Shown: positions 31,001-46,897 of the stretch, one piece after another
Layout of the letters: every line of letters begins with the position of its first letter
Numbering within the stretch: position 1 is the stretch's first letter
From: a virus
Reading direction: 5' to 3' (one strand)
IMG/VR virus record: IMGVR_UViG_3300020477_001675
Coordinates: 1-48,585 of that record
Length of the DNA stretch: 48,585 nt
Notes under the pieces: generated by a model
The model's database searches: none
What the model was told of the DNA's origin: nothing
The model's input: the letters and a program-made list of their open reading frames with translations, nothing else
Made by a program: the position numbers and the translations under genes

Positions 31001-34000
31001 CGATGCCACTCCAAGTATAATCATTTCCTTCCAAGTAAACAACAAACCCACTAATGTTTGGTGTTCCATACTTATATTTGTATGAAATATCAAAATGGGT
31101 ATTGTCTGACGCTCCCATTATCCATTGGTGTGTGGCCGGGGATGCTAGTGGAGATGCATCCGCCTTTGTGGCCCCTGTAGTAGTTGTAGGAAAATCATTA
31201 GTGCTCCCGTCGTCAAAAGAAGTAGTGTCTATATTGGGTTGTAAAAGGAATATAGTATTAGTATCGTTTGTAAATTTACTTGTAGAGGGGGTAAAAGCTG
31301 TTGTGTAGCGTGCATTGTTGGACATTCTTATTCCCCCGAGATAACCTTTAAAACCGGGGTATTCGACAAGCGAAGTGGACGTGCTCGGGCGATCACCCCG
31401 GACGCTACCATAGTCACACGGATTAGGCCATAGGGTTCTGCCAATATAAAGTGTTGAGCTCAGGGTCCCACCAATATGAGTATTTTGGCCCCCGGTAACG
31501 CGCGGGGTACTGAAAGATGTCTCTACACCATCAATAAAAACATATTTTAGAGTGCTACCCTGTGATACGAGGGCAACATGATGCCATTTTCCTTCTTCCA
31601 TGCCGTGAGTGAGTGAGGTTCGATAATAATAAAAACCCTTCGAGACACTTTCGGGTGGGTTCTCCCCCCATGCAGAGTCACCACAACAATAATCCCAACA
31701 TCTCGATAGGTTGTCAATTCCTATGGATGTTTTGTTTATCCAAATGTACCACATAAATACATTTTGGGGATGTATGTTCTGAAAAATGTAACGCGCTTTA
31801 TTATAGTCATCAAAATTATCTATTTTAATCCAAAACTCAGTTGTTCCGACGCCGGGGGTATTAGTGCCACCACTGCCATGGTATGCGGCGAGCCCCCATG
31901 AATTTCCTCCTCCGGGGACAGTGGCATCACTGCCCCCGTAATTTCCTTCTACTGATAGATAAGAAGATGTCGAACCATTAAAATAAATACTATTCTCGTC
32001 ACTAAGGGTTTTCATCCAGCTTTCAACCGTGAAAGTCTCCCCCTTAGGGAATCCAATACTTCGAGACTTTGGAATTTCTATATAATTAGAAGCTGTGCTC
32101 CCTAGTTCTAGAGAGCCTGTCCCCCCCTTTATGTCGGCAGGATTTTGGCTTATGCTGGAACGCCCAAATCGCTGCATTGAATGGTTAACCCATTCATTGG
32201 TAGGTACATCAAAGTGCTTTAGTAGCAAAGTGTTGGAATCTTCAACAAATGCAGTGGTAGATGGAGTAAAGGCTACATAGGGGATTCCACTTCTACGAGA
32301 CACTGTTCCAACCATGTTTATAGTGTGGCTACTACTACTTTCATCTGTGAAACTGGTATCACTTTTCACGGGTTGGATAAGGAGCTTAGTATTGCTGTCG
32401 GTTGTAAATTTAGCCGTAGGTGCCACAAAGTCTTGTGTATAGCGAGCCGTATTGCTTACTCGCACGTCATACATATGCCCATCGAGGTTGTAATTCCACT
32501 GTGCAAGTGAGCCGAAGGTTGTTCCAATTAGAAGGGGTTCTGAGCTATTATTTATACTAAATGAACCAACCGAGAGTTGAGCATACTGTAAACCATCAAC
32601 ATAAACAGTTAAATACAAATCTTCAGTTCTTACAACTGCTATGTGATACCATCGGTGAGTATCTAAACTGAAGCCAGCAGTAGTAGTATAATCCCAATTT
32701 CCCCCACTTCCTCCTCCTTTGAGGTGAGCTTGGACTTGATTGGTTGATGTTAGACTGATAGCCCATGCACTGTCACCACCCCCAGAAGCAGACTCTTGTT
32801 GTACCATTAGGCCAGCAGCAGCTACCGTATTTAAATAAACAGAAAATTCAACTGTCCATGCGCTAGTTCCATTTGGCCAGTCATCACTGTCGGGTATAGA
32901 CAAATAGCCAGTGCTTCCCCCCACTTTTCCAAAGTCAATATGCCTATCATCATCAGTGTAACGCGCACTGTCACTTATGCGAAGTTCATCAAGATATCCG
33001 TCAAAATAAGACATTTCCCCCTTGGAGAAGCCAATGTTTACGTCACCGGTTAAACTGGGTAGGGTAGCAATGGCTGTATTTTCTATTAATGATTCATTTC
33101 GACCATCTACGAACAAATAAACATCTGAGCTATCCCGCACCAAAGAAAGGTGATACCATTTATTTTTACTGGGTGACCAGTCAGCGTGGTAATTAGCTAC
33201 ATCGCTTGCACTACTTAATGCTTTAAAATTAATTTGGTTATCTTTATAGAGCCATGAAATTTTATCAGTAAATGGACTCATGCCTTCTATGTATAAACGA
33301 CCTCCATCGTTTTGGGCTCTAGAATGAGAATAGGTCCAACCTTTAACGGCGCGATTGAAAGTGTATCGCGTAGCTCCATCATATAAAATAATTACACCGC
33401 TACCTCCTCTACCCCCCATGTCTATTCGTGCAGCTGCGCCACCGCCGCCACCAAGACCATTGGTTCCAATTTCTCCACCATACCCCGAAGTTTTACGGGC
33501 ACCATCACCACCGCCCCCTGCCCCCCCGCTACCGGGAGAACCATTAAATCTACTGCCACCACCACCGCCGCCATAATAAACAGAGGTTGAACCATCTGCT
33601 ATAGTAAAGGCTTTTCCATCTCCACCCTTACCACCTTGGGTGGTACTTCCATCTGTGCCAGCTTCGGCTGCACCACCACCACCGCCGCCGCCAGAATTAT
33701 TTCCTGCGTAGTGAAACGGTGTGCCCCCACCCGCTTTACCATATCCGGTACCACCACCCGAATTAGTTTGTAAAGTTGCTCCCCCGGACGTTAAACCAAA
33801 ACCTTTTAGGTTTGGATTTCCACCACCGCCGCCGCCAGAACCCCCGTCAAGGACCCCTGCATTAATTTGGGAAAGGTCTTTGGTGCGGTTACCCGCTCCA
33901 CCCCCAACGGCTGTCATGTCTCCAAAAATAGAATCTTGTCCACGCGTAGGGGACATCGCATCGGGACATCCTGCTGTCCCCCTACATGGCGCGTGGTTAC

Positions 34001-37000
34001 TGCCGCCTTCTCCACCATAACCCACTAAAGCTGTTATGGTTTCTCCTTCCGTAACAGGATAAGATGCATTATATAAAACACCTCCTCCACCACCGCCGCC
34101 GCCCCATGCACCACCGCCGCCACCACCGCCGCCGCCCACGAGTAGTGTTTCTAGTGATGTTATTCCTGCCCCTATTGTTATTTCGTTTGATTTATCATAC
34201 AAACCCTTGTCTTGTATTTCGGGCTGGATAAGCAATAGTGTATTACTATCATTTGTAAATTTAGCTGTAGGAGGCAACCCTGCTGGTGCAAAATAAGAAG
34301 GTAAATTTTTCTCTCGCGTTGCTGTTCCGTGGTTGGTTATAACGTGTGCGCTACTACTTTCATCATGAAAATTAGTGTCCGTGCTTACAGGCTGAATGAG
34401 GAGCGTGGTGTTAGCATCGCTAGAAAAGGTGTAAGCTGGGGTAAAATCAGCCGTGTAGCGTGCTGTGTCAGACATTCTTACGCCATATAGATATCCGTTA
34501 AAAGCCCACCCGTCACTGAGGGTCCAAGTGCTGCCTATAATAAGCGGACCTGTGGCCAAGTCTCCAAGAGTAGTATTGTGCTCTATAGAATGATTCAGTT
34601 TACCATCTATATACAAGGAAAACCATGATCCATTTCGCACTGCAGCCATGTGATGCCACTGGCCATCAAGCAGTGAAGAGGTACTGTGAAGGTTAACCCT
34701 GTCCGATCCCGAGTTACCACAATAAAAATTACCTTTTCCATCCGGTTGTATTTTAAAGTCGTAAGTATTCCAACCATTTCGTGTGCCACCTGTATAAGGA
34801 CCTGATACTATTGCTTGGTAACCACCGTTTTTGGTGGTTTTAAACCATGCTTCAATAGTAAAATTACTGCTACCCAAATCCCAATCGGTACTGTCAGCAA
34901 CACTAAGATACTGAGTTGAACCGTTCAGGGCAATACTTCGCGCAGTTGAACTAGATGTATATCTTGAATTATCACTTACCCTCACGCCATACATGGAACC
35001 CGAAAAACCATTAGAGGGTATAAATTCAGCGCTTGGATTGCCGTCTATTGCATAATAGCTTCCCAACACCAAGGGGTTAGCTGTATCTCCTGCGGCTGTT
35101 TGGGGGACGTCTAGGATTACAGACCCATCTGCATAAACCGTGGTATTCGTGCCGTCAGAGTTAACCGCAATATGATGCCATGTATCTTTTGTAGGAAGCC
35201 ATGCACCAGTTGTTGTTCCTGCGGCATTATCAGTTCTTAATTTCAAATAACCTACCCCACTAGAATAATAATACGAAAGATAAAAATATAGAGACGCCGG
35301 TCTTGATTTGGAATCTACAGCATTTTCTGTAACCATTGAATATAGATATTGTTCAGTGGTATTTGTAATATCACTAAATTTAGCCCAAAATTCAATTGTC
35401 CATGTATCACTTGCAGTCCATTTAAAATCTGACCCACCCGTAACTGTTACAAAAGCATTTCCCCACCACGAACTTTTATCGGGAGAATCAAACACCATGG
35501 GTACCTCTAAACCTGTTTGTTCATATAAAGCAAGCGCCTTTCCGGTGTCCTTAAAATTATACCACCCTTCTAGGGTAAAATTACTTGAACCAAAATCAAA
35601 TGATCCATTGTCATTTACAGAAAAACTTTTTTCTTTAGCTCCATCTAGGCGCAGTGAACCTGTTCCAATCCTTTTAATGTCAGTTGAAATAGGAAGGTTT
35701 CCATAGGATGGGGTTGATTGGGGTGGTGTGATATTCGAATTGTCACTCCATACTTCTACAGGATCAGTGTGTAAAAGCAAAAGGGCATTAGGATCAGATT
35801 CAAAAGGCACAGTGGTAACAGTAAAGTTCGAAGCATACCGTGCAGAGTCACTATAGCGCAACTCGCTTAGTCTACCTTTTGAATAACCATCAACACAATA
35901 CCCTATACTTGGAGCGTCGGGAAAGTTCCCCATCGCTGAGCTACTGCTTATAGCTGTGTGAGCGGTCCCGTCTGTTACTTCCGTTCCATTAACAAAAAAC
36001 TTTAAACTTCCAGCATTTCGTACGACTGCAACATGGTGCCATGCAGCTATGGTTAGAGCAGTAGCTCCATAACCTGAATAATTCCATGCATTACCTTCCC
36101 CATTATTTTTGCAGGTTATCCCGCTCGAAGATGCGCTTACATTGAAATAGTCTCTCTCTTTTTTGTTCCCTTCTCTTGACCACAAATCCACCCTGTCTGA
36201 ACCACTGTTAAGATATACCCACCCCTCAATAGTAAAGTTTCCTGTTCCCCTATTAAGGTCTGCACTGGGGGCTACCAAAAGTTTTTGATAACCATAAAAG
36301 TTTATGGAAGACCCTAGATCATAAGGGGCGGCTACATCCGTGCTGTGGTGAGTATTTCCATATTTGGTTATTGTAAAAGCATTACTACTTGAGTCTGAGA
36401 AAGAGGTGTTTCCGTCAGCTACTGTATTTGATTGTAGCAGTAGCTTGGTTGACGAATCACTAACGAGTCTAAATGCTGGCGGGGTAAAATCTGAAATATA
36501 TCTACTTTGTCCAAAAGAAATTCTAAAGTTATTAAGATACCCCTTTACATTAGAACTTACAGTTCCGCCTAAGTAACCAGAGCTCCCAGTATTAGCCGCC
36601 CCTATATACATGTTTTGAGCCGTAAATGCGCCGAAACTACCTACGGCTTTTCCACCCACCCCATTACTGACGGCTGACTTAACGACGCCATCCACAAAAA
36701 TCCGTAGCGTGGCTGGTGGGGTTATATCACAGGTGAATGCGATATGGTGCCACTGTCCATCATTAACGTTTACGTCGGCTTCTTGGTCTCCATTATTATC
36801 AGTACCCCACGCAGCATAACATTTTACAGAACCCGTTTGGGTTACTCTCATGTTTATGTATTCTGAGCTAGCAGATTGTGGAGTTTCGAAAATATAAGCA
36901 TCCGCCGTCCCTTGTGTCAGGTTGCCACTATTTTGTCTTTTGAACCATGTTTCATAACACCAATTGGAATCTGTGGGAGACCACAAGTCTGTTACCGCGC

Positions 37001-40000
37001 CAACTTTTAGTCTATCATTGCTGGAAGTACCGGCAAATTCGATGGAAGAAGCCGAACTTGAAGCGGACGTTAAATAAAATGGGTTACCTACTGCAAAATC
37101 TCTATAAGTTTGTTGGAGGGTGGAGGAAGCCGTTGAAAGCTCTCTTTTGCTGGGGCCACTGTCTTCAAAAGTGCCCCAGAAATCCCCCTCGGGATGAATA
37201 AGTAATTCAGTGGGATCACTTCGTGATACTGCAACGTGGTGCCACTTCCCCACAGAGAGAGTTTGGTCTGTATACAGAGATATGGGCCAACTATCTTTTC
37301 CGTCCCCGTATGCAAACCATGGCTTCATAAGATTTGAAGTCGAAAAGTGATAAGAGGGTAGATTTACTTTGTTTGTAGGCGTCGTTTCGTTGGTGTTGCC
37401 TCCAAAAATAAATCCATTTCTACGATTAAGAGCCATTACTTCGTCTTTGGAGGTGTCCACTGGAGATGGGTAACCATATAAGTTAACCCATTTGTCAAAA
37501 TCTATTAAAAATAATGTATTCCCATCTGCTTCAACTCGGGTAGGGGTAAAATTTGAACTATACCGAACCACATTGGACATTCTTATGTTGTCCATCCACC
37601 CCTTATACTGGTAACCACTGTGCCACTGGGCTCGACCAATTGTAAAGTGTTGACTACCCGTATTAGTCCAGCTACTAAAGGTTTTGCTGCCTTTAAGAAC
37701 GCCGTTTATATACAAATAAACAGTTTTACCATTGGCTACACAAGCAATATGGGACCACTGATTGAGTGGCAATGAGCCAGTCGGCGTAACTAAATCATCA
37801 TTACAGGTAGAAAAATTTAAATGATTATTATAACGCAGCATGAGATTAAAAGCGTTACAGCCATTAGCATTGCCTCTCGAACATAGTGAGCCTAATCCAT
37901 TATCAGGCTGGCCACCATTGGGGTATATCCATGCTTCGTATGTAAAACAACATCCTTGCTGTGAGCTTCCTGCAAGATTATAAATGTTGTTATTTCCAGC
38001 TTCAGCGCTTACATTCATGTAGCTATTTGTATTCCCGTGAAAATATATTGAAGAGCTTCCGTATTTAACTACATCAGAATTTTTAATAGGATAACTACTA
38101 GCCAAAGTGATCTTAGCCCCCTTCGATTCACTTTCGTCTAGGGAAAGTAAATTTTCAGGATAGTATACCCATGATTCAATTGTAAATCCTTTTTTGTTCT
38201 CATTTCCGCGTATGTTGCCCAACGAAAAATCAGTCTCAGGGGTATCAGCCCTAAGTTCTAAATATGGTCCACGATTAGATGTGCCTTCGGGCCCAGTAAA
38301 AGCTATAGAGCTTGCCCCAAGTCTGGCGGGTGCATTGAGGTGAAAAACGCCATCAACATTTGATATTGGATTTGCATAAGGACTATTATCTATAAAAGTA
38401 TCATGGATAAACGTTTGAGTTTCCTGATTAGAAGAGGCTTGGAAATTTTGTAAAATTCTAAAATTATATATATACCCTTTATAATCTGATGGGGCATATC
38501 GAGTGTTGTATTGCCCCAAGCTTAAAAAATTAGTATTGCTATCACCATCTGCTATTGTTATTACCCCGGGCAATTCTGTACTGTGCGCTGTATTACTATA
38601 GTTAAACCATAGAGTTTGTGGGGAAAACCTTAATCCCGCATCTTGTGTGGAAGTGATAGTTTGCTCAGCACTACTTTCGTCTGTATAATTTGTCGAGGTT
38701 TCGGTGGGTTGAATGAGTAACTTTGTGTTGCTATCGCTAGTAAAGGGCCCTATGGGAGGATCAAAGGCAGTGGTATAACGAGCGGTATTGCTTACCCTTA
38801 GGTTAGCTACCTCACCCCACCAGTAATAAGTGGGGTTCTGAGTAACTTGGTGCCCGAAATGTAAAACCCCCTCGGTTATATCACTGACAGACGTGAGGGA
38901 CACTTGGGATACACCATTAACCCACAGTACAAGATTGCCAGATGATCTTGTAACTGCAATGTGATACCAACTATTTGTCGAAAATTCCCACGATGTATAT
39001 CCAGAAGTTGTGGTGGCAGCATTATTTTGATCAAAAAGGTAAAAACGAGATTTATAACCTTGCTTGCTTCCGTCTGAAAGATATTTATTAGCACTAATTT
39101 CGGCTGTTAGAGAAACTGTTCCGGTATCATCCGAATTTAAATCAAATATTGGGCGAAAATTCGGTGCTTTATTACCATTAGATTGTATCCATGCTTCTAT
39201 CGTAAAATCTCCAGTACCAAATTTAAAATCGTCACTTGTTATAGATAAGTAATCATTTTTGCCATCAAAATGTATACTTCTTTGGGTAATCGTAGCTTCG
39301 TCTTGGAGGGTAGATGTATGAGTTGACAGTGGTGAAAGAAGAAACTGAGTATTGCTATCATTTGCAAGTTTGGTTATAGGAATATCAAAATTATCGCTAT
39401 AGCGTGCAGTATTACTTACGCGGACATCAAATAAATAACCCTCCCACGTAGTTGTGGTAGTACTGCTAGCAGAATACCTATCCCCCATGTAAAACCAATT
39501 ATTACTAGTGTCACCACTTTCGGTGTGAGTGAGTTCTGATTTTCCATTTAAGTAAACTGTCCACGTACTTCCATCACGCACAACGGCTACAAAATACCAC
39601 GCCCTCTTGCCTAGCGGGGTGGTGGTAGCTTGCGTGGTGCTTGCAGCTGCTCCTGTATATAATTGTAGATACCAGTTATCTCCCTCCCCCTTATAAGTAC
39701 TAAGGGCCCATCCTTCGCTGGCACTTACCAAATTGCCAAACAAAGATGGGGCTGTGGCACTAAAATCATTAGCATAAAACCAACATTCTGCAGTAAAATC
39801 AGCAGTCCCTTTATATAATAGCTGTGGTGACCATGCACGTACCCAGTTTTTGTTTGAAAAAGCTAGGCTTCTTTCGGGCATCTTTGACGGCCCTGTTTGT
39901 AGGCTGTCTACTTGTGTGCCATTTATAAATAATTTATAAGTTCCATCCTTTTTGTGAGTTACATTTATATAATTCCATTGATTGGGATAAAGAGCTCCCT

Positions 40001-42878
40001 GTAAAGAGAGGGCCGTCGAAAGAGAAAGAGTTTTCCACTCAAAGACCACTTTACTAAGGCCATCTTGATATAAGGTCCATTGGGTATTATTGCCCGCTGT
40101 ATTTCCAAAGGATGCAATTGCGTTAGTAAGCGACAGGGTATCCAATGTTACAAGAATATCAGCACCTGTACCCACCCCATCAGAAATTATCATGCGGGGA
40201 ACTGATTTATATTTGCCGCCATCTGTGATGCTGGCGGCAGTGATGGTGCCCCCTGACAGCGTAAACGTTGCTGTCGCACTTCCCCCGCCACCATAAAAAC
40301 TTATTATAGGAGTAGATGAATAGCTAGAGCCTCCTGCAGTTACCGTTATGCTTTTTATAATCCCTGACAAAATTGCGGTGGCAGCAGCTGAACTTCCGCC
40401 TCCACCCGAAAAAGTAATTGTTGGGGCCGAAGTATAACCTGAACCTTTGTCGGTTACCGTTATGTCTACAACAACACCCTCTGAAATAGTAGCTGTTGCA
40501 GCGGCACCAGAACCACCACCCCCGCTAAAGGTGATACCCGGGGCACTCGTATAACCCGAGCCTCCATTTGTAATCGTAGTACCCTCTATGATACCAGCAA
40601 AATTCGCCGTGGCAGTAGCGCCCGAACCAGTGCTGTCCGTTATTACTACGGTTGGAGCAGAGGTATAACCAAATCCACCGTCTGTACTTCCGTTCACAGC
40701 CGTCGCTAATGCACCACTTCCGCCTCCTCCATTTATGGTGATAGAAGGAACTAATATTTTTCCGGTAGTCGGGTCTATACTGTTATATCCTTCTCCGTTG
40801 TCAGTTAGGGTTATAGACGCAACCCCAACAGCAGCAGTGGCAGTAGCCCCTGTTCCTCCCCCTCCCGAAATTGAAACAGTGGGGGGTGAGGTATAACCCG
40901 TTCCCATGTTGGTAACCACTATTTCGGTAACTACACCTCCAACCACCACAGCGGTAGCAGCAGCTGACGAACCCCCTCCCCCGCTAAAGCTTACCGTGGG
41001 AACTGAGGTATACCCGCTTCCACCGGCGGTTAAGGTTACTACAACTCCGAGTGCAGCAGTAGCAGTGGCATCTGTAGAACCGGCTGCTTCTGTTAACTTT
41101 CCGCCTTCCACAGTAATGGTTGGCACTGAAGTGTACCCTTTACCCGGTGCGTTAACTGTGATACCCCCCAATTCTCCGACAGTTATCCCAGTTACAGCGT
41201 TTCCAACTACAGTAGCGGCAGCTGTAGCTTGTCCTCCTCCTACGAAACTTCCTGTGGGGGCTACGTAACTTGCTCCGACAGTTTGTACAATTCCTGAATT
41301 TATAGTGCCTACTTTATTAAGGGGATAAACCCACGTTTGTATTTCCCAATCTTCAAATTCATTAAAAGCATATGCCTTTGAAGGTGGATTAATATCTTGG
41401 GCAAGATTAGGCTCATTAAATGAAGGGATTTGAGCAGTGGGATTTACATTATCTGTATAAAGAGAAGATTCACCGCTAAAATAAATACACGGCTGTGTTC
41501 CCCCAAAGGGGTCGTTTACTCCAGAATTCTGAAAAACGCCACTATTATTATTATTAATGCGAGCGTTTATGCGGCTGGTGTCATAGAATTCTGTAGCATC
41601 ATTACTGGGGTCTGACTGTAGAACGAAAGTTTGTGCTTCGATGGGCCGTATTCCATTTATTGAAAAAGCCAAGCTAGCCACCGATATGTCTACGGGGGCC
41701 AACTGAGTAACGGGCCAATTTCCCTCAAGTGGGATGTCCCATTTTTCACAATCCAAAAGCAACATCGTATTAACATCAGAGGTGGTCTTTGCAGGGGTAA
41801 AATTATTACTGTACCTTAGGATATTGGATATTCGTACGTCATCCATGTTTCCCTGAAAATGAATTGTATTAGCATTTGAATTTCTGCCAAAGAAAAGGGG
41901 ATTGCCATTTTCAATGGACATTGGGGTTCCACCTTTGGAAACGGTTAGGGTTCCTTTATGAGCCCCGTCAAGATAAAGGGATATTTGTCCGGGGGTGTCA
42001 GCAGAATGGAACTGTAACGCTACGTGGTGCCATGTTGCGGGGGTAACTTTTGCATTATTAAAATCCCCCTTATGGTATATTATATTTATAGATTGGAACT
42101 TAATATATCCATCGCTATTAATACCCAATGAAAAACCATTTGCTTTAGATTTATCTCCTTTTGAGAAATAAGTTTGATCTGTTCCCCAGTGGTCGGGGTT
42201 ATGCCAAACCCAAAATTCTACAGTAAAGTTTCCTCTTCCAAAATCATAAAAATTTTCGGTGTTTTTATTTGCATTTTTTAAATCGTCCCTGTTCTGAACG
42301 GAAAATCCCCAACTACTTCCAACAGTGGGTGGCCCAAAAGACATACTGGTATTTGAATATCGGTAGCCATCAGTAGAAGGATGAATGCTCCATGGATTTA
42401 TTACTTCAGGGGATTTGAAATTAGGAGTAACTAATTGGAGGTTTTTAACTTTCTCCATATTAGCCCGTGTGTCCCCCACCTGACCTCTTGCCTCTCCCAT
42501 GTATTGTCCCGAAGAAGAGTCGTCCCAATATGAAGTGTCACCCGTATATTGCATGTCTCCATCAGTAAATAAATTTTCATCCGACCCCAAAAATCCATTA
42601 GGACCGCCATTACTGATATCTACTTTTATTTGTTGGAAGTTAAGTTTTCCTTCTTCATCCATTATGGGGGTTTCATTAAGGAAGATAGATCGAAGGGGAC
42701 TCTTATAAGGTTGAAACGTAACCGAGTCCCACCCTGTATTGCCAAGAGTACCTACGACAGAATAATCTCCCGAAACGATACCGTCAATGGGGCCTTCACA
42801 TAGCAAGTCTAGGGTCTCGATATTAGTTACCGAGTACGCCTTTTTTCCTGCAATGTAAATTCCTTCGGTTGTAGGCAT
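25032..42878 (-). CDS. J-like: Giant lambda J-like tail-tip hub with LamG-array insertion (5948 aa)
   Basis: Residues 1-95 match the start of lambda J (LDLLCEGPIDGIVSG; SIFLNETPIMDEEGK). J homology resumes near residue 4700 and runs through METSMCYP-type, NPAWCFYDLVTNDRYGLGK (about 4920) and AFGASSRGQALRLGKWLTYT segments, then a fibronectin-III-like stretch from about 5341. The ~4600 residues between hold about 15 LamG/concanavalin-A-like modules, nine GSGYT repeats (about 535-916), a polyglycine domain (about 2900-3170) and two more GSGYT units (about 4490-4560). Fourteen modules end in a V/I/L-R-I/V/M-S-N/D-x-x-R-Y type motif, usually followed by a D-x-N-T-x-L-L-L linker. Roughly 0.65 MDa. 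J forms the tail-tip hub and central fibre, and its insertion probably binds host glycans. An AGGAAA ribosome-binding site precedes the ATG. Last gene of the M-L-K-I-J operon. Confidence 0.93.
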   Translation of the reverse strand: MPTTEGIYIAGKKAYSVTNIETLDLLCEGPIDGIVSGDYSVVGTLGNTGWDSVTFQPYKSPLRSIFLNETPIMDEEGKLNFQQIKVDISNGGPNGFLGSDENLFTDGDMQYTGDTSYWDDSSSGQYMGEARGQVGDTRANMEKVKNLQLVTPNFKSPEVINPWSIHPSTDGYRYSNTSMSFGPPTVGSSWGFSVQNRDDLKNANKNTENFYDFGRGNFTVEFWVWHNPDHWGTDQTYFSKGDKSKANGFSLGINSDGYIKFQSINIIYHKGDFNNAKVTPATWHHVALQFHSADTPGQISLYLDGAHKGTLTVSKGGTPMSIENGNPLFFGRNSNANTIHFQGNMDDVRISNILRYSNNFTPAKTTSDVNTMLLLDCEKWDIPLEGNWPVTQLAPVDISVASLAFSINGIRPIEAQTFVLQSDPSNDATEFYDTSRINARINNNNSGVFQNSGVNDPFGGTQPCIYFSGESSLYTDNVNPTAQIPSFNEPNLAQDINPPSKAYAFNEFEDWEIQTWVYPLNKVGTINSGIVQTVGASYVAPTGSFVGGGQATAAATVVGNAVTGITVGELGGITVNAPGKGYTSVPTITVEGGKLTEAAGSTDATATAALGVVVTLTAGGSGYTSVPTVSFSGGGGSSAAATAVVVGGVVTEIVVTNMGTGYTSPPTVSISGGGGTGATATAAVGVASITLTDNGEGYNSIDPTTGKILVPSITINGGGGSGALATAVNGSTDGGFGYTSAPTVVITDSTGSGATATANFAGIIEGTTITNGGSGYTSAPGITFSGGGGSGAAATATISEGVVVDITVTDKGSGYTSAPTITFSGGGGSSAAATAILSGIIKSITVTAGGSSYSSTPIISFYGGGGSATATFTLSGGTITAASITDGGKYKSVPRMIISDGVGTGADILVTLDTLSLTNAIASFGNTAGNNTQWTLYQDGLSKVVFEWKTLSLSTALSLQGALYPNQWNYINVTHKKDGTYKLFINGTQVDSLQTGPSKMPERSLAFSNKNWVRAWSPQLLYKGTADFTAECWFYANDFSATAPSLFGNLVSASEGWALSTYKGEGDNWYLQLYTGAAASTTQATTTPLGKRAWYFVAVVRDGSTWTVYLNGKSELTHTESGDTSNNWFYMGDRYSASSTTTTTWEGYLFDVRVSNTARYSDNFDIPITKLANDSNTQFLLSPLSTHTSTLQDEATITQRSIHFDGKNDYLSITSDDFKFGTGDFTIEAWIQSNGNKAPNFRPIFDLNSDDTGTVSLTAEISANKYLSDGSKQGYKSRFYLFDQNNAATTTSGYTSWEFSTNSWYHIAVTRSSGNLVLWVNGVSQVSLTSVSDITEGVLHFGHQVTQNPTYYWWGEVANLRVSNTARYTTAFDPPIGPFTSDSNTKLLIQPTETSTNYTDESSAEQTITSTQDAGLRFSPQTLWFNYSNTAHSTELPGVITIADGDSNTNFLSLGQYNTRYAPSDYKGYIYNFRILQNFQASSNQETQTFIHDTFIDNSPYANPISNVDGVFHLNAPARLGASSIAFTGPEGTSNRGPYLELRADTPETDFSLGNIRGNENKKGFTIESWVYYPENLLSLDESESKGAKITLASSYPIKNSDVVKYGSSSIYFHGNTNSYMNVSAEAGNNNIYNLAGSSQQGCCFTYEAWIYPNGGQPDNGLGSLCSRGNANGCNAFNLMLRYNNHLNFSTCNDDLVTPTGSLPLNQWSHIACVANGKTVYLYINGVLKGSKTFSSWTNTGSQHFTIGRAQWHSGYQYKGWMDNIRMSNVVRYSSNFTPTRVEADGNTLFLIDFDKWVNLYGYPSPVDTSKDEVMALNRRNGFIFGGNTNETTPTNKVNLPSYHFSTSNLMKPWFAYGDGKDSWPISLYTDQTLSVGKWHHVAVSRSDPTELLIHPEGDFWGTFEDSGPSKRELSTASSTLQQTYRDFAVGNPFYLTSASSSASSIEFAGTSSNDRLKVGAVTDLWSPTDSNWCYETWFKRQNSGNLTQGTADAYIFETPQSASSEYINMRVTQTGSVKCYAAWGTDNNGDQEADVNVNDGQWHHIAFTCDITPPATLRIFVDGVVKSAVSNGVGGKAVGSFGAFTAQNMYIGAANTGSSGYLGGTVSSNVKGYLNNFRISFGQSRYISDFTPPAFRLVSDSSTKLLLQSNTVADGNTSFSDSSSNAFTITKYGNTHHSTDVAAPYDLGSSINFYGYQKLLVAPSADLNRGTGNFTIEGWVYLNSGSDRVDLWSREGNKKERDYFNVSASSSGITCKNNGEGNAWNYSGYGATALTIAAWHHVAVVRNAGSLKFFVNGTEVTDGTAHTAISSSSAMGNFPDAPSIGYCVDGYSKGRLSELRYSDSARYASNFTVTTVPFESDPNALLLLHTDPVEVWSDNSNITPPQSTPSYGNLPISTDIKRIGTGSLRLDGAKEKSFSVNDNGSFDFGSSNFTLEGWYNFKDTGKALALYEQTGLEVPMVFDSPDKSSWWGNAFVTVTGGSDFKWTASDTWTIEFWAKFSDITNTTEQYLYSMVTENAVDSKSRPASLYFYLSYYYSSGVGYLKLRTDNAAGTTTGAWLPTKDTWHHIAVNSDGTNTTVYADGSVILDVPQTAAGDTANPLVLGSYYAIDGNPSAEFIPSNGFSGSMYGVRVSDNSRYTSSSTARSIALNGSTQYLSVADSTDWDLGSSNFTIEAWFKTTKNGGYQAIVSGPYTGGTRNGWNTYDFKIQPDGKGNFYCGNSGSDRVNLHSTSSLLDGQWHHMAAVRNGSWFSLYIDGKLNHSIEHNTTLGDLATGPLIIGSTWTLSDGWAFNGYLYGVRMSDTARYTADFTPAYTFSSDANTTLLIQPVSTDTNFHDESSSAHVITNHGTATREKNLPSYFAPAGLPPTAKFTNDSNTLLLIQPEIQDKGLYDKSNEITIGAGITSLETLLVGGGGGGGGGAWGGGGGGGGVLYNASYPVTEGETITALVGYGGEGGSNHAPCRGTAGCPDAMSPTRGQDSIFGDMTAVGGGAGNRTKDLSQINAGVLDGGSGGGGGGNPNLKGFGLTSGGATLQTNSGGGTGYGKAGGGTPFHYAGNNSGGGGGGGAAEAGTDGSTTQGGKGGDGKAFTIADGSTSVYYGGGGGGSRFNGSPGSGGAGGGGDGARKTSGYGGEIGTNGLGGGGGAAARIDMGGRGGSGVIILYDGATRYTFNRAVKGWTYSHSRAQNDGGRLYIEGMSPFTDKISWLYKDNQINFKALSSASDVANYHADWSPSKNKWYHLSLVRDSSDVYLFVDGRNESLIENTAIATLPSLTGDVNIGFSKGEMSYFDGYLDELRISDSARYTDDDRHIDFGKVGGSTGYLSIPDSDDWPNGTSAWTVEFSVYLNTVAAAGLMVQQESASGGGDSAWAISLTSTNQVQAHLKGGGSGGNWDYTTTAGFSLDTHRWYHIAVVRTEDLYLTVYVDGLQYAQLSVGSFSINNSSEPLLIGTTFGSLAQWNYNLDGHMYDVRVSNTARYTQDFVAPTAKFTTDSNTKLLIQPVKSDTSFTDESSSSHTINMVGTVSRRSGIPYVAFTPSTTAFVEDSNTLLLKHFDVPTNEWVNHSMQRFGRSSISQNPADIKGGTGSLELGSTASNYIEIPKSRSIGFPKGETFTVESWMKTLSDENSIYFNGSTSSYLSVEGNYGGSDATVPGGGNSWGLAAYHGSGGTNTPGVGTTEFWIKIDNFDDYNKARYIFQNIHPQNVFMWYIWINKTSIGIDNLSRCWDYCCGDSAWGENPPESVSKGFYYYRTSLTHGMEEGKWHHVALVSQGSTLKYVFIDGVETSFSTPRVTGGQNTHIGGTLSSTLYIGRTLWPNPCDYGSVRGDRPSTSTSLVEYPGFKGYLGGIRMSNNARYTTAFTPSTSKFTNDTNTIFLLQPNIDTTSFDDGSTNDFPTTTTGATKADASPLASPATHQWIMGASDNTHFDISYKYKYGTPNISGFVVYLEGNDYTWSGIELSPGQWYHIALVRIGARLNFFINGIQQPTSFISNDNIEETSLRFGIKHDLSAASHFQGKLDEVRIANAAMYKTNFTPPTIQFKAEPNLIQLFVDGVADAGANSSILDDRVFKNSNPTVGIGGVTNYQTKASTSFMDEFRVSDVGRYTKNFIPPTQKFQPDDDTVILLHSNVGSLAEVDSFYDLSAYANTITAHPARVGSLTPVHSTDQAIILNSSIYFDNPSWQQYNGDYLAVEESSAFNLGTENFTIEAWIYLDRFDTEHTIISNAAQDGTGWIFMVSTQEDGNGLYLYSKLNDNSTYLRAAYTFAPGLWYHVAAVREDGTLRMYIDGVQITTGTPFSGGYSPDYTAGAIVGAYYNNATAVQAHTGLFDGYMDQLRISNVARYTGGTTFTPPKQSFGLDGYTTFLLESRLKIYSNTPKENFLGNISVDENDQFIIAENIFARAAADDYILKASRPPNTITTVKEPPHDLWSAEFGNGRPKCQFERVGDTMMNFTPVGYQWPVGESFIEYRTTNLYNFQRVQNFDRGVTAISISEGGSGYTTAPTITLEGGNPTAGQDAAAEASVVDGAVTSINITKQGTQYLTAPTVKFTGGGGSGAKATATIDDYFNGTYASSPEREVSSVETAKKFIIQTAKLKERNTYYLTCEAAASQATGGSFRLVVNKSPDMKPEDDIAVSSIFYPFANGRINNKDSKDQPIGLNFKIPLGTTPRSEGTYYIGIELQESNTTLFFDNISLTTASGFPLQKTRNIGERLRGPTTDPRPANYSDDMFAKKYRIVNKHCVAAELNIKIQQLYSQADNGNFNDATISNVVIHFRPLFNDDTSSYVEAYNEEIKGVTSQGFIKKYVLDFSDTLASIPTSKRDNFWGWEIKIHRTAPESTTARNKSVTKVDSLTEIYETSMCYPNSAVTIQKFSAEYFSNFPSRSFDTKMLKVKIPNNYDPIKRTYDESEGPWNGLFKEEKYWTNNPAWCFYDLVTNDRYGLGKYIPEEGFDKWTLYKIAQYCDVIVPDGNGGMEPRFVCDVIINKREDAYKVMNDMASCFRGILYYAAGQLYAVQDSAKLPIYNFTNANVQDGDFRYSNTSRRDRHNVCIVRYNDKNNFYRPAIEYVEDIEGIKQNGIRETDVSAFGASSRGQALRLGKWLTYTENLEIEVCEFRAGIEGAYLKPGDIISVTDANRLPSRRGGRTFKVGETNIDGGPTGYTQITLDSKLEIDSNKVYNLSLLTPTYSYDSYNVSDLNAGDAKDFRRSQVQDLLFSGDMASGITVDGNEKTQITFSGNDVSRPLAWLPNFDGSRKILNQTDYIIPDQTVFTVYPTGEEFQYGETLSEAVNVETTYRITDIDEQEKQLYKIKAVQNNPKKYQLLENDLAFEQGGLFNSPTLKVPDGPSAISLNLNRLTPNTVEVKYAITPPAVTDGLDSYHIFIKEGEKSFTVSDFTGNYPNLWSEFTGSTPTGQYYMANTSIGRAKWPSGEMYVPDVKNRLAVLPAKSDTAHGTFQPLDSGMYAFKAFSTNALGEYSASSRIDFITIPQNTPVMDVQIKNLRLSTDTQLSNEAGTADAQQVHFTGGSPTFKWTSELANSGVFPNTNTFRITVRPQSSSLTKPNQEILYERTGYEPKTSIGNELDSILSGLMFTYDLTGNLLHTSGERRFDLVVEAHDELGRSSAGGYINLDSSYQNASGYDIVRVENPPVSNPYLSADGDECGVDNDICTSQIITLDNKINLTFKKNNYQTFNKDIKGAYIYLSTGEFASSGIEGKKLGELPSGIQRIRVDYNNIIEINPTGDMLLNGSVFMAYSLYDSFDQESETVYHTAAEGNPLLHPDYDLASMLDVSTPQIVTLDDTNAVKKLIKGGTQNIEFSLPAQKEWRFIKLEGSVQGERKLYINSEHENERWQELSQLDNWKVYINDVRVDNAENWASNPLSASKFTFCNNAKWNGSTDLLPVFNIQSRGLPLSDFKTSETLNIRFEFNGTNVNFLNFSAEAEYGRRGG
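33370..34180 (-). repeat. Polyglycine domain of the J-like protein
   Basis: Glycine-dominated segment (GGGGGGGGGAWGGGG near its start) with SYPVTEGETITALVGYGGEG and a closing GGRGGSGVIILYDG. It resembles glycine-rich receptor-binding domains of phage adhesins and the C-terminus of the fibre gene at 1-1590. Confidence 0.85.
40130..41275 (-). repeat. Array of nine GSGYT-type repeats
   Basis: Nine units of about 35-45 residues follow the plan G-S-G-Y-T-S-x-P-T-I-T-F-S-G-G-G-G-S-G-A then A-A-T-A, then a valine-rich strand. The array lies inside a LamG-like module whose two halves flank it. Two further units occur at about 29190-29410. Confidence 0.88.
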
Positions 42879-42886
42879 TATTTTTC

Positions 42887-43498
42887 CTATTCAGTAACTG
42901 TTGAATCCCCAGCATCTTTGTACCCTATGCTATATACTTGTGCTATAGTTTGTGAACCCACTACTAACCTGCCGTATCCCAGTGGTACAGGACCACCTTC
43001 GTTAACCGTGTTCTGGGGCCCTCCAAATAAATAAGATTGTCGTGATTTTTGTGGTGCTTCATCAAATGCTCTAAAATCTTCGAACTTGGGGGGTTTCATT
43101 AACATGTAAGTTATAACAGCAACCACTATGGCCACTATGATCATTGCGACAAGTTCAGCTGATCCTTCTATAGCGGGAGTAATGTCTATAGTTTTTAGAT
43201 CATTATTTTTTATGTAAAGTTCTGAATTTTTGACTTTGTGTATCATTTTTTCATTTACAGGGTCGGTATTTTTTATATTCCTAAGGGCAGGAGGTACTTT
43301 CATTTTTTTTCCATTTATTACAATATCTAGGTTTAAATTATTTCGTGCGTGGGTAGTAAGTAATCTTTGCCACGCGTTACCTGTTAAGACGTCTATAGCC
43401 CTTATAGCTTCAGCTACGCTGTTTACCGCGAGGTTAAATTCTCGTCCAATCTTTTTTCCCAAAAGACCGTGTAACCTTATTTTTACTAGGTTGTTCAT
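42887..43498 (-). CDS. I-like: Tail-tip assembly protein I-like
   Basis: 203 residues. The N-terminal ~95 residues (NLVKIRLHGLLGKKIGREFN, then SVAEAIRAIDVLTGNAWQRL) match the ubiquitin-like start of lambda tail assembly protein I. A Gly/Ala/Val/Ile membrane-like helix near residues 120-142 (AELVAMIIVAIVVAVITYML) is usual for this family. The C-terminus carries GYGRLVVGSQTIAQVYS. In lambda, I acts with K and J in tail-tip initiation and is not stable in the mature virion. It starts 1 nt after the K stop and ends 8 nt before J, so the three are one translation unit. Confidence 0.88.
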   Translation of the reverse strand: MNNLVKIRLHGLLGKKIGREFNLAVNSVAEAIRAIDVLTGNAWQRLLTTHARNNLNLDIVINGKKMKVPPALRNIKNTDPVNEKMIHKVKNSELYIKNNDLKTIDITPAIEGSAELVAMIIVAIVVAVITYMLMKPPKFEDFRAFDEAPQKSRQSYLFGGPQNTVNEGGPVPLGYGRLVVGSQTIAQVYSIGYKDAGDSTVTE

Positions 43499-43499
43499 T

Positions 43500-44273
43500 T
43501 TATAAAAAATCTAATCTGAATACTGCCCATACTCTGTCTTTAAAAAAAATATCATAATCTAATAAACACGACTTCTTTCTCAAGGGGTGACACAAAACAT
43601 CTCCATTTCCTGTATAAATAGCTAGGTGAACAGGCATATTTTCCTGCGCCCCCCGAGGAGTGACAATAAGATCATGCTCCTGAAGGTCTTCTTTTGAGGT
43701 CGGCGTGGGGGTTATCCGTGAGAAATTAAAATCTTTAAATTTTTTTATTACTTTCTTAAAGTCTACTTCGTATAAATTTTCTTTAAAGAAATATTCGTAG
43801 CTTGGGAAAATTTCAGAAGCCGTTAGTAATCGACCTTTATAAAAAGAACTAAATTTGTCTTTAAGATAATTTTTAGTGAGAGTTATACACCCGGGGTAGG
43901 GTGTATTTGTAAATTCTTTTCCTATATAGTTACTAAATTTTTCTTGTTTAGAATCTATAAACTCATCAGTACCCACACAATAAAGAATAAATCTATTCTC
44001 GGTGATATTCATATTTTGTTCATCCGCAAGAGAAAAATGATTCACTTTATTTGGGTGGGAGTGGTATATTGCCATTATATTTTCAGTATCAGAACATTTA
44101 ATGTAATCCTCTGGGGGAATTTTAAAATGATGCGTGGGGTCCGTAGCAATATTTTTGCACGGATAGGTGTCAAGAGATTTCCCTTTTTCTATAATAAAAC
44201 CACAGCATTCATGCGGCATTTCTTTTTCAGCATGGTTTTTAATTTTATTTTTTATTTTGGGTGTTAAAATCAT
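43500..44273 (-). CDS. K-like: Tail-tip protein K-like: JAMM peptidase plus NlpC/P60 domain
   Basis: 257 residues with two enzymatic domains. The N-terminal JAB/JAMM metallopeptidase has a complete motif: E22 in HECCGF, H71-S-H73, and S81-x-x-D84 with seven residues between H73 and S81. The C-terminal NlpC/P60-like domain has candidate catalytic Cys129 in YPGCITLTKNYL and His216 in PVHLAIYTGNGDVL. Lambda K has the same pair. The NlpC part probably opens peptidoglycan during tail penetration or assembly; the JAMM part may process a tail protein. All JAMM ligands are present, so it is probably active. Its start overlaps the L stop (ATGA). Confidence 0.92.
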   Translation of the reverse strand: MILTPKIKNKIKNHAEKEMPHECCGFIIEKGKSLDTYPCKNIATDPTHHFKIPPEDYIKCSDTENIMAIYHSHPNKVNHFSLADEQNMNITENRFILYCVGTDEFIDSKQEKFSNYIGKEFTNTPYPGCITLTKNYLKDKFSSFYKGRLLTASEIFPSYEYFFKENLYEVDFKKVIKKFKDFNFSRITPTPTSKEDLQEHDLIVTPRGAQENMPVHLAIYTGNGDVLCHPLRKKSCLLDYDIFFKDRVWAVFRLDFL

Positions 44274-45505
44274 CAGCCTCGCCCTCCTTCTCTTGTAATT
44301 GACGGAAAGGCACCGAAGGGCAAAATTCCCCTTTTGGGGTGATTAGCATCCATTTGAACAGGGGTAGAGCTCACTCCCCATCTAAGTTTGCACCCATTAA
44401 AAGTTTTAGAACATTGATCTGCTATCCAATGATCATAATTGGGAGGGGGTGTGTTTTGGGGAATATCGTGTTTAGCTACAAAATAAAATGATTTTTTATC
44501 ATGAACAATAAAAACAATATCATCTTTAAAATAAACTGTATTAGGAGACCATTTGTGGGGGGTATTTGCAGAAATAGGGTTATACCCCGGGCTTATTTCA
44601 CTAATTAACTCATCATTTTCAGTAGCTATGGGTGGTGCGTGTTTTGGAAGATGTGTGCCTTCAAAATGTTCGTGTGTATTTATCCACCCTTCAGCTTGGG
44701 CACGAAATTGGTATTCATAGGTACACCCCGCGCTACGATAATGCCATGTACACCTTTTCATATTAAAAATTCTTTGAGGTAGCTGAAGTCCTTCAAAGTT
44801 AACGTAAGAAGATAATTCAAATTGCATGGATTTTTTATCTTCATAAGATTTTTTTTCAATGAAAAAAAGATCGGGTGGGAAAAATGCATTTTCGTCAGGG
44901 GTTATTTCACTGGGTATATCTTGGTATAATCTTTTGGTAAGATCGGGATTCCCATCACTATCTAATTGATACCAATTTTGATAATCTAAAAATTTACTAA
45001 AAGTTTTAAGCCTCGTAACTTTTGCGCCAACTAAATCATCAAGGTCTTTAAGTAGTTCTTTTAAAACGGCAAATTTGCTAAGAGCTTCAGGACGCGATCC
45101 AAATGAAATTTTTGGGGAAGCTGCTGGGCCGGTAGAATTTGTTTCAAACCCTTCGGCTTTGCACGGAAAAGCTTTATATCTATTTCCTTGAAACCAAATG
45201 TCTCTTTGTATTAATTTTATATTATTGTGGAAGCGGAATACACTTATTGACGAACTAAAAGGGTCATCAATTAATGTGCCGCCCATTAACAAATTAAGTT
45301 CATTAAATTTTTGCCTTTTTTTGATTTTGTCAGGACTCAGAATATTTGAAAGATCAATTTCAAAAAGCTCTATTAAAGCCGTGGGCTCTAAGGCTGTGGC
45401 TTGAGCTTGCAGATTTTTCATACTCTCGCGAGCTTCTGCTTTTGTCATCACCACCCCGCCGCTTCTATTTAGGGGGTTTTTAAAATGTTCGTCTTTATGT
45501 GCCAT
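44273..45505 (-). CDS. L-like: Tail-tip protein L-like with inserted carbohydrate-binding-like segment
   Basis: 410 residues. The body matches lambda L: LIELFEIDLSNI, LIQRDIWFQGNRYKAFPC, DLDDLVGAKVTRLKTFSKFL, KSMQFELSSYVNFEGLQLPQ. Lambda L coordinates an iron-sulphur cluster through cysteines near its end. Here four cysteines are present at 252 and 261 (CTWHYRSAGC) and 365 and 372 (CSKTFNGC). The ~100 residues between the pairs contain a W-S-P-N-T-V-Y-F-K-D-D-I-V...P-P-P-N-Y-D-H-W segment (about 317-356) like a small CBM5/12 chitin-binding-type module. It ends GILPFGAFPSITREGG, as L proteins do. It would form part of the tail-tip hub between M and the K/I/J complex. Confidence 0.88.
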   Translation of the reverse strand: MAHKDEHFKNPLNRSGGVVMTKAEARESMKNLQAQATALEPTALIELFEIDLSNILSPDKIKKRQKFNELNLLMGGTLIDDPFSSSISVFRFHNNIKLIQRDIWFQGNRYKAFPCKAEGFETNSTGPAASPKISFGSRPEALSKFAVLKELLKDLDDLVGAKVTRLKTFSKFLDYQNWYQLDSDGNPDLTKRLYQDIPSEITPDENAFFPPDLFFIEKKSYEDKKSMQFELSSYVNFEGLQLPQRIFNMKRCTWHYRSAGCTYEYQFRAQAEGWINTHEHFEGTHLPKHAPPIATENDELISEISPGYNPISANTPHKWSPNTVYFKDDIVFIVHDKKSFYFVAKHDIPQNTPPPNYDHWIADQCSKTFNGCKLRWGVSSTPVQMDANHPKRGILPFGAFPSITREGGRG

Positions 45506-46038
45506 TATGGGGTTTCTTCAAAAGTTGCTTTGATGTTATAATTATCATTAAATATAAAAGTAGAATCAAATTTTTTAGCTATAAAAAGTTTTTGTGTTGC
45601 AAAAGGAGCAGGGGGGGTATAAGCAAACGCTTCTGCTGCTCGTCTGGTATTTAAAAAGTGCATAATCGCGAGGGTTTCTTTTTCAGAACGACCTTCAAAA
45701 CTCATGTCTAGGGTAATAAGGTTGTTATTTATACCATCGGGAGTTCTTTGGGTATAGCCATCCCCAAAACGGACAGCTAATACACGAGGTGCAATACGGG
45801 TTGTTTGATTATAAGAGGGGGTCCAAATAAATTCGGTTTTTTGTTTTGAAGCTTCTCCCACACTAAAGTTGGTATTTCCTCCCCAGTGGACATTTCCTAT
45901 ACTGGGACCACTATTGAGGTTAGCATCACTTCTAGAGTACCAGTAAATACTCGTGTTTGCCGGGTACTCTACAATATCATTAGTGTTATATGTAGTAGAG
46001 CTACTCCAAGCCGCGATTTCATCATATATAGATGCCAT
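45505..46038 (-). CDS. M-like: Tail-tip protein M-like with N-terminal carbohydrate-binding-like module
   Basis: 177 residues. The C-terminal ~110 residues match lambda M: FIWTPSYNQTTRIAPRVLAV, RFGDGYTQRTPDGINNN, then IMHFLNTRRAAEAFAYTPP. The N-terminal ~55 residues are extra: AAWSSSTTYNTNDIVEYPAN, later YWYSR and NVHWGG, the Trp/Tyr/Asp-Val spacing of CBM5/12-type modules. M sits at the interface of tail tube and tip, so this domain could be exposed on the outside of the tail end. It is the first gene of the minus-strand tail-tip operon, with a GTGTAA/GGTAAAAGG signature upstream. The L start overlaps its stop. Confidence 0.85.
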   Translation of the reverse strand: MASIYDEIAAWSSSTTYNTNDIVEYPANTSIYWYSRSDANLNSGPSIGNVHWGGNTNFSVGEASKQKTEFIWTPSYNQTTRIAPRVLAVRFGDGYTQRTPDGINNNLITLDMSFEGRSEKETLAIMHFLNTRRAAEAFAYTPPAPFATQKLFIAKKFDSTFIFNDNYNIKATFEETP

Positions 46039-46096: not shown

Positions 46097-46897
46097 ATGA
46101 TAACCATGCTTTTTAATTTAATGGAGAGAAATAGATTTTTTTCTGAAAAAGCCAAGAAAATTAAAAATAAAAAATTATGGGGAGCCAAGGGGTGCCAAGT
46201 GGTCATGGCGGCAAGGAACGCGGAGAAGTGGTTGCCGATTACTTTGGCCTCCATAAACAACGCAATGAGGAATTTTGAGTGGATTATGCATTTTGGGGAT
46301 GATAATAGTGATGATAACACCTATAAAATAGCAAAATCTTTTTCAAAACATACTTCTGCCAAAAAATTTAATTTATTTAAATTTAATAAAGCAAAAACAA
46401 TAGCTGAGGCCAAAAATAGAGTAATTAAAGAAAGTTTAAAATATTCTCATGATTATCCTGCTATTTTTATGGCGGATGCAGATGATTTTTTTACCCAAGA
46501 AAGACCCATTGGGCTATTAGAAGTCGCTAAATCCTTAAATGCTTATTTTTTAGTGGGAAGTTGGTACTATTGCACGGGCGGCGAGAAGCTTTTAAGAAAT
46601 GCCAGTGAATCTATTAAAAAAAATGCCTTTGGACCGTGGACAACGCTAATGCACGCTGATCTTATTCCTGAGAGTGGGAAACTTTTTTATGAAAATATGG
46701 ATGCACATGAAGATATCTTTTTATGGGACGAATTTAAGGCGGCATCAGTAGAAATTGTTCCTGTTAACAGTATCGTCGCGTGCTATTACAATGCTCGTCA
46801 GGGTACAGTTTCCAAACCAGTCGATTTAGATAAAAAAATAGAAGAATTAAAAAAATATCAGTATTTAAAGAGCCTCCTTTGTAATGAAAAAGTGTAA
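46097..46897 (+). CDS. GT-A fold glycosyltransferase (family 2-like)
   Basis: 266 residues from the first ATG; in-frame ATGs at 46106 and 46121 are alternatives and none has a clear ribosome-binding site. The GT-A pattern is visible: CQVVMAARNAEKWLPITLAS (nucleotide-binding strand-helix), IMHFGDDNSDDNTYKIAKSF (second acidic cluster, about 63-82), the metal-binding D-A-D-D at 127-130 in AIFMADADDFF, and an acceptor-side acidic stretch (NMDAHEDIFLWDEF). Such enzymes transfer a sugar from a nucleotide sugar. It is divergent from the tail-tip operon and followed by a tail gene, so it could glycosylate a virion protein, or modify host surface sugars. No membrane helix is seen. The fold is confident; the substrate is unknown. 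Confidence 0.82.
   Translation: MITMLFNLMERNRFFSEKAKKIKNKKLWGAKGCQVVMAARNAEKWLPITLASINNAMRNFEWIMHFGDDNSDDNTYKIAKSFSKHTSAKKFNLFKFNKAKTIAEAKNRVIKESLKYSHDYPAIFMADADDFFTQERPIGLLEVAKSLNAYFLVGSWYYCTGGEKLLRNASESIKKNAFGPWTTLMHADLIPESGKLFYENMDAHEDIFLWDEFKAASVEIVPVNSIVACYYNARQGTVSKPVDLDKKIEELKKYQYLKSLLCNEKV

Follow-up and report, generated by a model that had tools for sequence, protein, structure and literature searches.

What a domain of carbohydrate-binding type might do inside the iron–sulphur (Fe–S) region of a phage tail tip is the question raised by this locus. In phage lambda the cysteines C173, C182, C205 and C212 of the hub protein L ring the Fe–S cluster in the solved tip, according to the available text of the structural report (PMC10721106). 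A sequence-only reading of the window, which is the whole stretch of 48,585 nucleotides analysed here and corresponds to the 48,585-base virus record, had described an L-like protein in which two cysteine pairs are separated by about 100 residues containing a segment similar to carbohydrate-binding modules of family 5/12 (CBM5/12), and had considered this an unusual design.

The L gene and its neighbours

The gene is part of a cluster on the minus strand with the same gene order as in lambda (8iyk), namely M-L-K-I-J:

25032..42878, minus strand: giant open reading frame of 5948 aa at the J position (open reading frame listing)
42887..43498, minus strand: lambda I-like gene (PHROG 32, tail assembly protein, 7.9e-26)
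43500..44273, minus strand: lambda K-like gene with a JAB domain (Prok-JAB, 1.3e-12; PHROG 30)
44273..45505, minus strand: lambda L-like hub protein gene, 410 aa (Pfam PF05100, PHROG 18, fold match to 8iyk_L)
45505..46038, minus strand: lambda M-like distal tail protein gene, 177 aa (Pfam PF05939, Phage_min_tail)

Residues 88–264 of the L-like protein match the Pfam family Phage_tail_L with an E-value of 4.7e-35 (121.2 bits, cut-off 25), the PHROGs search assigned it to the minor tail protein family 18 (6e-51), and residues 29–241 of its predicted model superimpose on lambda L with Z 14.3 and 3.8 Å over 156 residues (VIA-align), which establishes the L-like identity read from the sequence. An identical L is encoded on a second contig, the only one matched by a single-sequence scan and a DNA-pattern scan. 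Judged from its gene position and from a reading of its translation, the 5948-aa open reading frame is probably J-like, and by eye it contains many LamG/concanavalin-type repeats (e.g. DEVRISNVARY) as well as repeats of the GGSGYT type. On the opposite strand M is adjoined by a 266-aa open reading frame (46097–46897, plus strand) that looks glycosyltransferase-like by eye and had no match in a PHROG search.

L contains five cysteines in total, at positions 115, 252, 261, 365 and 372. The spacings of 9 (C252–C261) and 7 (C365–C372) are the same as in lambda L, so that the four cysteines of the two pairs do correspond to the lambda Fe–S cysteines. They are invariant in all 28 rows of alignment A4, which comprises the window and 27 of 36 non-redundant relatives, the nine omitted ones including L045 and the L039/L042/L060 type described below. 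In alignment A1, whose nine L rows include named phages, one of these cysteines is missing from the row of Rhizobium phage RHph_Y1_11. Going by its sequence, the window L probably also binds an Fe–S cluster. As A1 offered no pattern conserved enough for scanning, the three-row alignment A2 was used for the scan instead, and the best 80 loci were listed, ranked by similarity to the window.

Layout of the insert between the cysteine pairs

Between C261 and C365 lie 103 residues, with the following arrangement along the gene:

44723..44752, minus strand: first cysteine pair C252/C261 (invariant in A4; spacing as lambda C173/C182)
44564..44722, minus strand: linker, residues 262–314, including the APPIATENDELI stretch (alignments A1 and A4)
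44420..44563, minus strand: module with predicted CBM5/12 fold, residues 315–362 (pLDDT, PDB matches, kept in relatives)
44390..44413, minus strand: second cysteine pair C365/C372 (invariant in A4; spacing as lambda C205/C212)

The distance of about 100 residues was therefore read correctly, but only about 48 of them are CBM-like and the rest is linker, of which the APPIATENDELI stretch has a counterpart in short L proteins. The segment itself is real: its motif, W319-x5-Y325-x3-D329-I-V331 followed by Y341-F-V343, P-P-P and H-W360, is located at 44426–44551, inside the region 44390–44570 that had been pointed out. When the 87 open reading frames of at least 80 aa from all six frames were examined, the full pattern W..Y..D.V..[YF]..P..W was present in two, L and the adjacent M, and in none of 500 residue-shuffled sets, a test that is biased by the fact that the pattern was composed after both sequences had been viewed. 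We regard the conservation of the module in relatives together with its predicted fold as the stronger evidence.

Sequence evidence for a relationship to CBM5/12

A Pfam search with the window's own insert found no family, and in this respect the profile search did not bear out the proposed relationship for the window copy. For a broader view we aligned 20 inserts (A3, the window and 19 loci; near-copies were omitted, as were L029, which is truncated, and L045, which is divergent). CBM_5_12 (PF02839) was the commonest Pfam match among them, being found for four of the 20 members with a best E-value of 7.7e-4, always below the cut-off (19.9 bits for the best relative's insert, cut-off 26.2). 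Since no member exceeds this cut-off, the assignment to CBM5/12 rests on the fold and on a weak sequence similarity. The insert of locus L030 had the chitin-binding domain of ChiA1 (1ed7) as its top PDB sequence match in phmmer (E 0.0035); phmmer with the L036 insert retrieved no chitin-binding chain from the PDB, and the A3 profile search of the PDB gave nothing below E 0.5. With the insert as tblastn query, 18 phage records were matched at an E limit of 10, a J protein being the best (E 0.4), and two Pseudomonas phage proteins in this list themselves match CBM_5_12 weakly (E 0.0087 and 0.12). J or tail-fibre proteins of Pseudomonas phages (L092 and L093) contain a comparable CBM5/12-like module that stays under the Pfam cut-off. 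HHalign scored the L insert against enzyme CBMs at 13.4 versus at most 6.8 in column shuffles (n = 40); the probabilities of the profile–profile comparisons as a whole were low (29.6, 1.6 and 19.2), and we take them as supportive only. Other candidates were rejected, namely a head decoration identity of the window insert (PHROGs, E 0.081, sub-significant) and matches to SH3, BAH and Thoeris macro domains among the relatives' inserts, which were weak and inconsistent.

Predicted fold of the module

An AlphaFold model of the full L protein was built with A4 and has a mean pLDDT of 71. Means of ten-residue blocks range from 72 to 93 over residues 311–370 and are 93, 81, 93 and 93 over residues 321–360, while residues 235–260 stay below 50 and residues 262–290 show no confident fold. 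Using VIA-align, residues 315–365 of this model matched CBM5/12 domains from chitinases and chitin deacetylases with Z 5.5–6.7, among them ChiC 1wvv_B (Z 6.7, 2.0 Å/46), Moritella Chi60 4hmc (Z 6.5, 1.5 Å/42) and Vibrio COD 3wx7 (Z 6.4, 1.5 Å/45). Similar values were obtained for the Milano baseplate 8fqc_Q1 (Z 6.9, 1.5 Å/45), the A-1(L) fibre 8kec_a (Z 6.3, 1.7 Å/50), the 7-7-1 fibre 9rkv_M (Z 6.2, 2.3 Å/48) and Pa193 9b45_2 (Z 5.4, 2.1 Å/49). A Z of 5–7 is middling, and below 8 it can reflect a mere common arrangement; the fold was accepted despite this because unrelated chains are scarce in the top rows and the match spans the whole domain.

A domain-only model (the module with its flanks, 74 residues, pLDDT 74.6) found CBM5/12-bearing chitinases and chitin-binding domains, phage tail proteins and an Anabaena injection-system protein at Foldseek ranks 1–15, all of them at E 0.035 or weaker. 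VIA mostly agreed for this model, with Z up to 6.2 and one unrelated chain, 1wxr, in tenth place (Z 5.5). Tail and fibre proteins are well represented among the module's best matches in predicted viral structures, all of which are at E 0.001 or weaker. The structure prediction thus agrees with what had been suspected from the letters, and the L module very probably has a CBM5/12-type fold.

A partner module on M

M is well defined by its core, of which residues 69–175 match PF05939 with 4.2e-21, and by its similarity to lambda M (8iyk_M, phmmer 1.4e-9). Ahead of this core lies a further segment:

45874..46017, minus strand: second CBM5/12-like module, M residues ~8–55 (Pfam, profile alignment)

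This N-terminal segment has the same pattern as the L module (AWSSSTTYNTNDIVEY ... YWYS ... P ... HWGG) and matches Pfam CBM_5_12 with E 0.011 and 16.2 bits, under the cut-off of 26.2. When a profile of 17 of the 20 A3 inserts was searched against 3864 open reading frames, the best matches outside L were the N-termini of M proteins (best E 0.0095), followed by a Pseudomonas phage tail module at E 0.15. In HHalign the modules of L and M aligned over 49 columns without a shift of register and scored 24.8, a value that compares with a maximum of 9.3 among 40 column shuffles. On these comparisons M appears to carry a module similar to that of L. In four loci (L037, L038, L040 and L041) the M core forms the end of open reading frames of 1100–1340 residues, with a CBM-like segment directly before it.

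Distribution and history of the modules

The sequence-only reading had proposed a comparison of L homologues, and indeed the insert is present in some of them and the loop is short in others. Both the L loop and the M extension could be measured in 71 of the listed loci, whose frequencies are biased as only the best 80, ranked by likeness to the window, were considered. Among these matches a short L loop without an M extension was found 40 times and a long L loop together with an M extension 27 times, leaving four loci in which the loop is long but M has no extension (L018, L039, L042 and L060). M of L018 is cut by the contig start, and its visible part apparently shows the end of a module. 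The other three carry a GGSGYT-rich insert instead, located in the same inter-cysteine loop and resembling repeats in the J-like protein of the window. In bacterial genomes the loop is short in each of 27 L loci (three flagged as long by the script are short by eye), and of five L probes compared with phage records none matched over 80% of the L length.

For the phylogenetic analysis 89 rows were reduced to 36 clusters, and among these listed matches the CBM module is present in 30 of the 89 rows and 17 of the 36 clusters. Two changes on the tree are needed to explain the CBM-module label. The CBM rows and L045 form one group (91/88), within which 14 of the 17 CBM clusters are grouped at 100/98; L045 is classified as 'other insert' by the profile and by eye is a longer-looped version of the module. 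A single ancient gain of the module is the simplest reading, and for this reason the pairing of the M and L modules, which co-occur throughout one uncultured phage clade, has to be counted as one event. The L protein of locus L028 (755–2752) has 666 residues with 359 between the cysteine pairs and so contains an extra insert besides the CBM module.

Comparison with known tail tips and CBM5/12 proteins

Lambda shares with the window the gene order, the fold of L over residues 29–241 and the cysteine spacing, but only 22 residues separate the cysteine pairs of its L, and its M lacks an N-terminal module. Precedents for the layout are found in two solved hubs. In g13, the hub of the Rhodobacter capsulatus gene transfer agent RcGTA, the available text assigns residues 143–167 and 250–263 to the two halves of the ion-binding (Fe–S) domain and the 82 residues 168–249 between them to an 'oligosaccharide-binding' domain, and an insertion domain is present on the distal tail protein as well (PMC7296036). 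The hub of the marine roseophage vB_DshS-R4C is described likewise, with ion-binding parts at 142–161 and 244–266, an oligosaccharide-binding part at 162–243 and an insertion domain in Dit, and adhesion to the capsule is proposed by its authors (PMC10276861). Like these hubs, the window L holds an extra domain (within residues 262–364) between its Fe–S cysteine pairs. The inserts are described in other terms: that of RcGTA is named after the insertion domain of LKA1 gp49 and resembles the T4 hub rather than CBM5/12 (PMC7296036), and for that of R4C the available text makes no CBM5/12 claim (PMC10276861). 6tba_7A and 8gtc_P from the two hubs align over model residues 28–242 only, and neither hub is among the matches listed for the domain-only model, although the inserts may still be related. 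In Synechococcus phage S-CBS4 the cysteine pairs of L are separated by about 250 residues (L003, 3962–5359), which lack the CBM motif and by eye look coiled-coil-like at their ends. With RcGTA and R4C inserts at the same site and a large insert in S-CBS4, 'unusual design' was too strong an expression, and the window L shows a variant of an architecture that has been solved before. No CBM5/12 module was found for L or M in a literature search whose coverage leaves most subscription journals outside.

The fold also occurs in other tail proteins. Subdomain D2 of the CBA120 tailspike TSP1 is CBM5/12-like and resembles 1ED7 (2.1 Å over 38); it belongs to the head-binding part of a tailspike, in contrast to the Fe–S hub of the window, and no sugar role is reported for it in the available part of the paper (PMC3966878). 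In the Anabaena injection system Cis13, picked up by the profile and, if 7b5h was rightly matched, by its fold, is described as a trimeric connector similar to tail fibres (PMC8894136, available text). A text search of the available parts of the Milano and 7-7-1 papers gave no mention of carbohydrate, chitin or CBM.

With CBM family 5/12 proper, represented by ChiA1 (1ed7) and ChiC (1wvv), the L module has the predicted fold and the W..Y..GD.V core in common, yet it stays below the Pfam cut-off and lacks the aromatic pair of the chitin binders. In the CBM5/12 domains of several chitinases this pair follows the equivalent strand, in letters such as AKWWTQ, and it has a role in ligand binding by CBM5s. 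The four residues after V343, A-K-H-D in the window, are aromatic in none of the 20 members. A C-x-[QN]-x-H stretch resembling CLQPHTS of ChiA1 is present in seven of the 20, the window copy not being one of them.

Possible function of the modules

We propose that a CBM5/12-fold domain was inserted into the L Fe–S domain, in the loop that connects its two cysteine pairs, and that M, which forms the ring above L, has a sister module at its N-terminus. At its base this loop would be held shut by the Fe–S cluster, so that the L module could project outward and leave the hub undisturbed. Both modules might serve as accessory adhesion domains that touch surface or capsular polysaccharide weakly and repeatedly, a role which others have proposed for the RcGTA and R4C inserts, specific recognition being left to the giant J-like protein. 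Glycan binding by the L module is plausible, and we give the accessory adhesion role of surface-exposed modules somewhat better than even chances, considering that the Z values of 5–7, the missing Pfam match of the window insert and the absence of an aromatic after V343 in 20 of 20 members count against it and that CBA120 TSP1 D2 and, if 7b5h is right, Cis13 are tail-protein cases of the fold with no sugar role in the available reports. For copy number, exposure and sugar binding, which we infer, a more elaborate and rather doubtful version can be imagined, in which the tail tips of the uncultured clade would bear nine CBM5/12 modules in two tiers, six in the M ring and three on the L loops, acting as a cooperative collar with low affinity for non-chitin glycans, keeping the tip pressed on glycan-coated hosts during the search of J for its receptor.

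Instead of binding sugar, the CBM5/12 fold could have been kept as a structural spacer or docking domain, packed against M, L or J or serving as an anchor for side fibres. We consider this quite possible, if short of an even chance. It would fit the lack of chitin-type aromatics in 20 of 20 members and the recurrence of the fold in fibre and baseplate proteins (the Milano, 7-7-1 and A-1(L) matches), in the head-binding TSP1 D2 and in the connector Cis13, and M and L modules that travel together are what would be expected of domains in contact. Against such a docking role, the RcGTA and R4C hub inserts are taken as sugar-binding by their authors (PMC7296036, PMC10276861, available text), the 22-residue loop and the M without extension in lambda argue that the hub does not need the module, and co-occurrence of both modules within one clade amounts to one event and is no proof of contact. 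Much less credible is binding of the module to chitin or a different GlcNAc polymer, by which the phage would be held on chitin particles colonised by its hosts: almost every enzyme among the structure matches acts on chitin and seven members have the ChiA1-like stretch, but the window copy lacks even this stretch, and with the aromatic pair missing in 20 of 20 members chitin binding is unsupported and any sugar site must differ from that of the chitin binders. Least probable of all, and hardly to be expected, is a chance resemblance, produced by a succession of W, Y and P in a loop that folds poorly. The missing Pfam match of the window copy could be quoted in its favour; the high predicted confidence, the consistent fold matches and the retention of the module in 17 clusters speak against it.

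The pairing of the modules on M and L leads to a concrete prediction for the tip surface in an uncultured phage group. The locus also adds to the evidence for the loop between the Fe–S cysteines as a general port by which L-type hubs acquire extra domains, with CBM5/12 here, the 'oligosaccharide-binding' domains of RcGTA and R4C, and the inserts of S-CBS4 and the L039/L060 group as its cargo so far. This suggests a possible job for the long-puzzling cluster, namely the clamping of a loop to carry such cargo. Window-type L proteins are also encoded on two contigs of 178 and 203 kb (L025 and L026), so that lambda-like tips occur in large phages as well.
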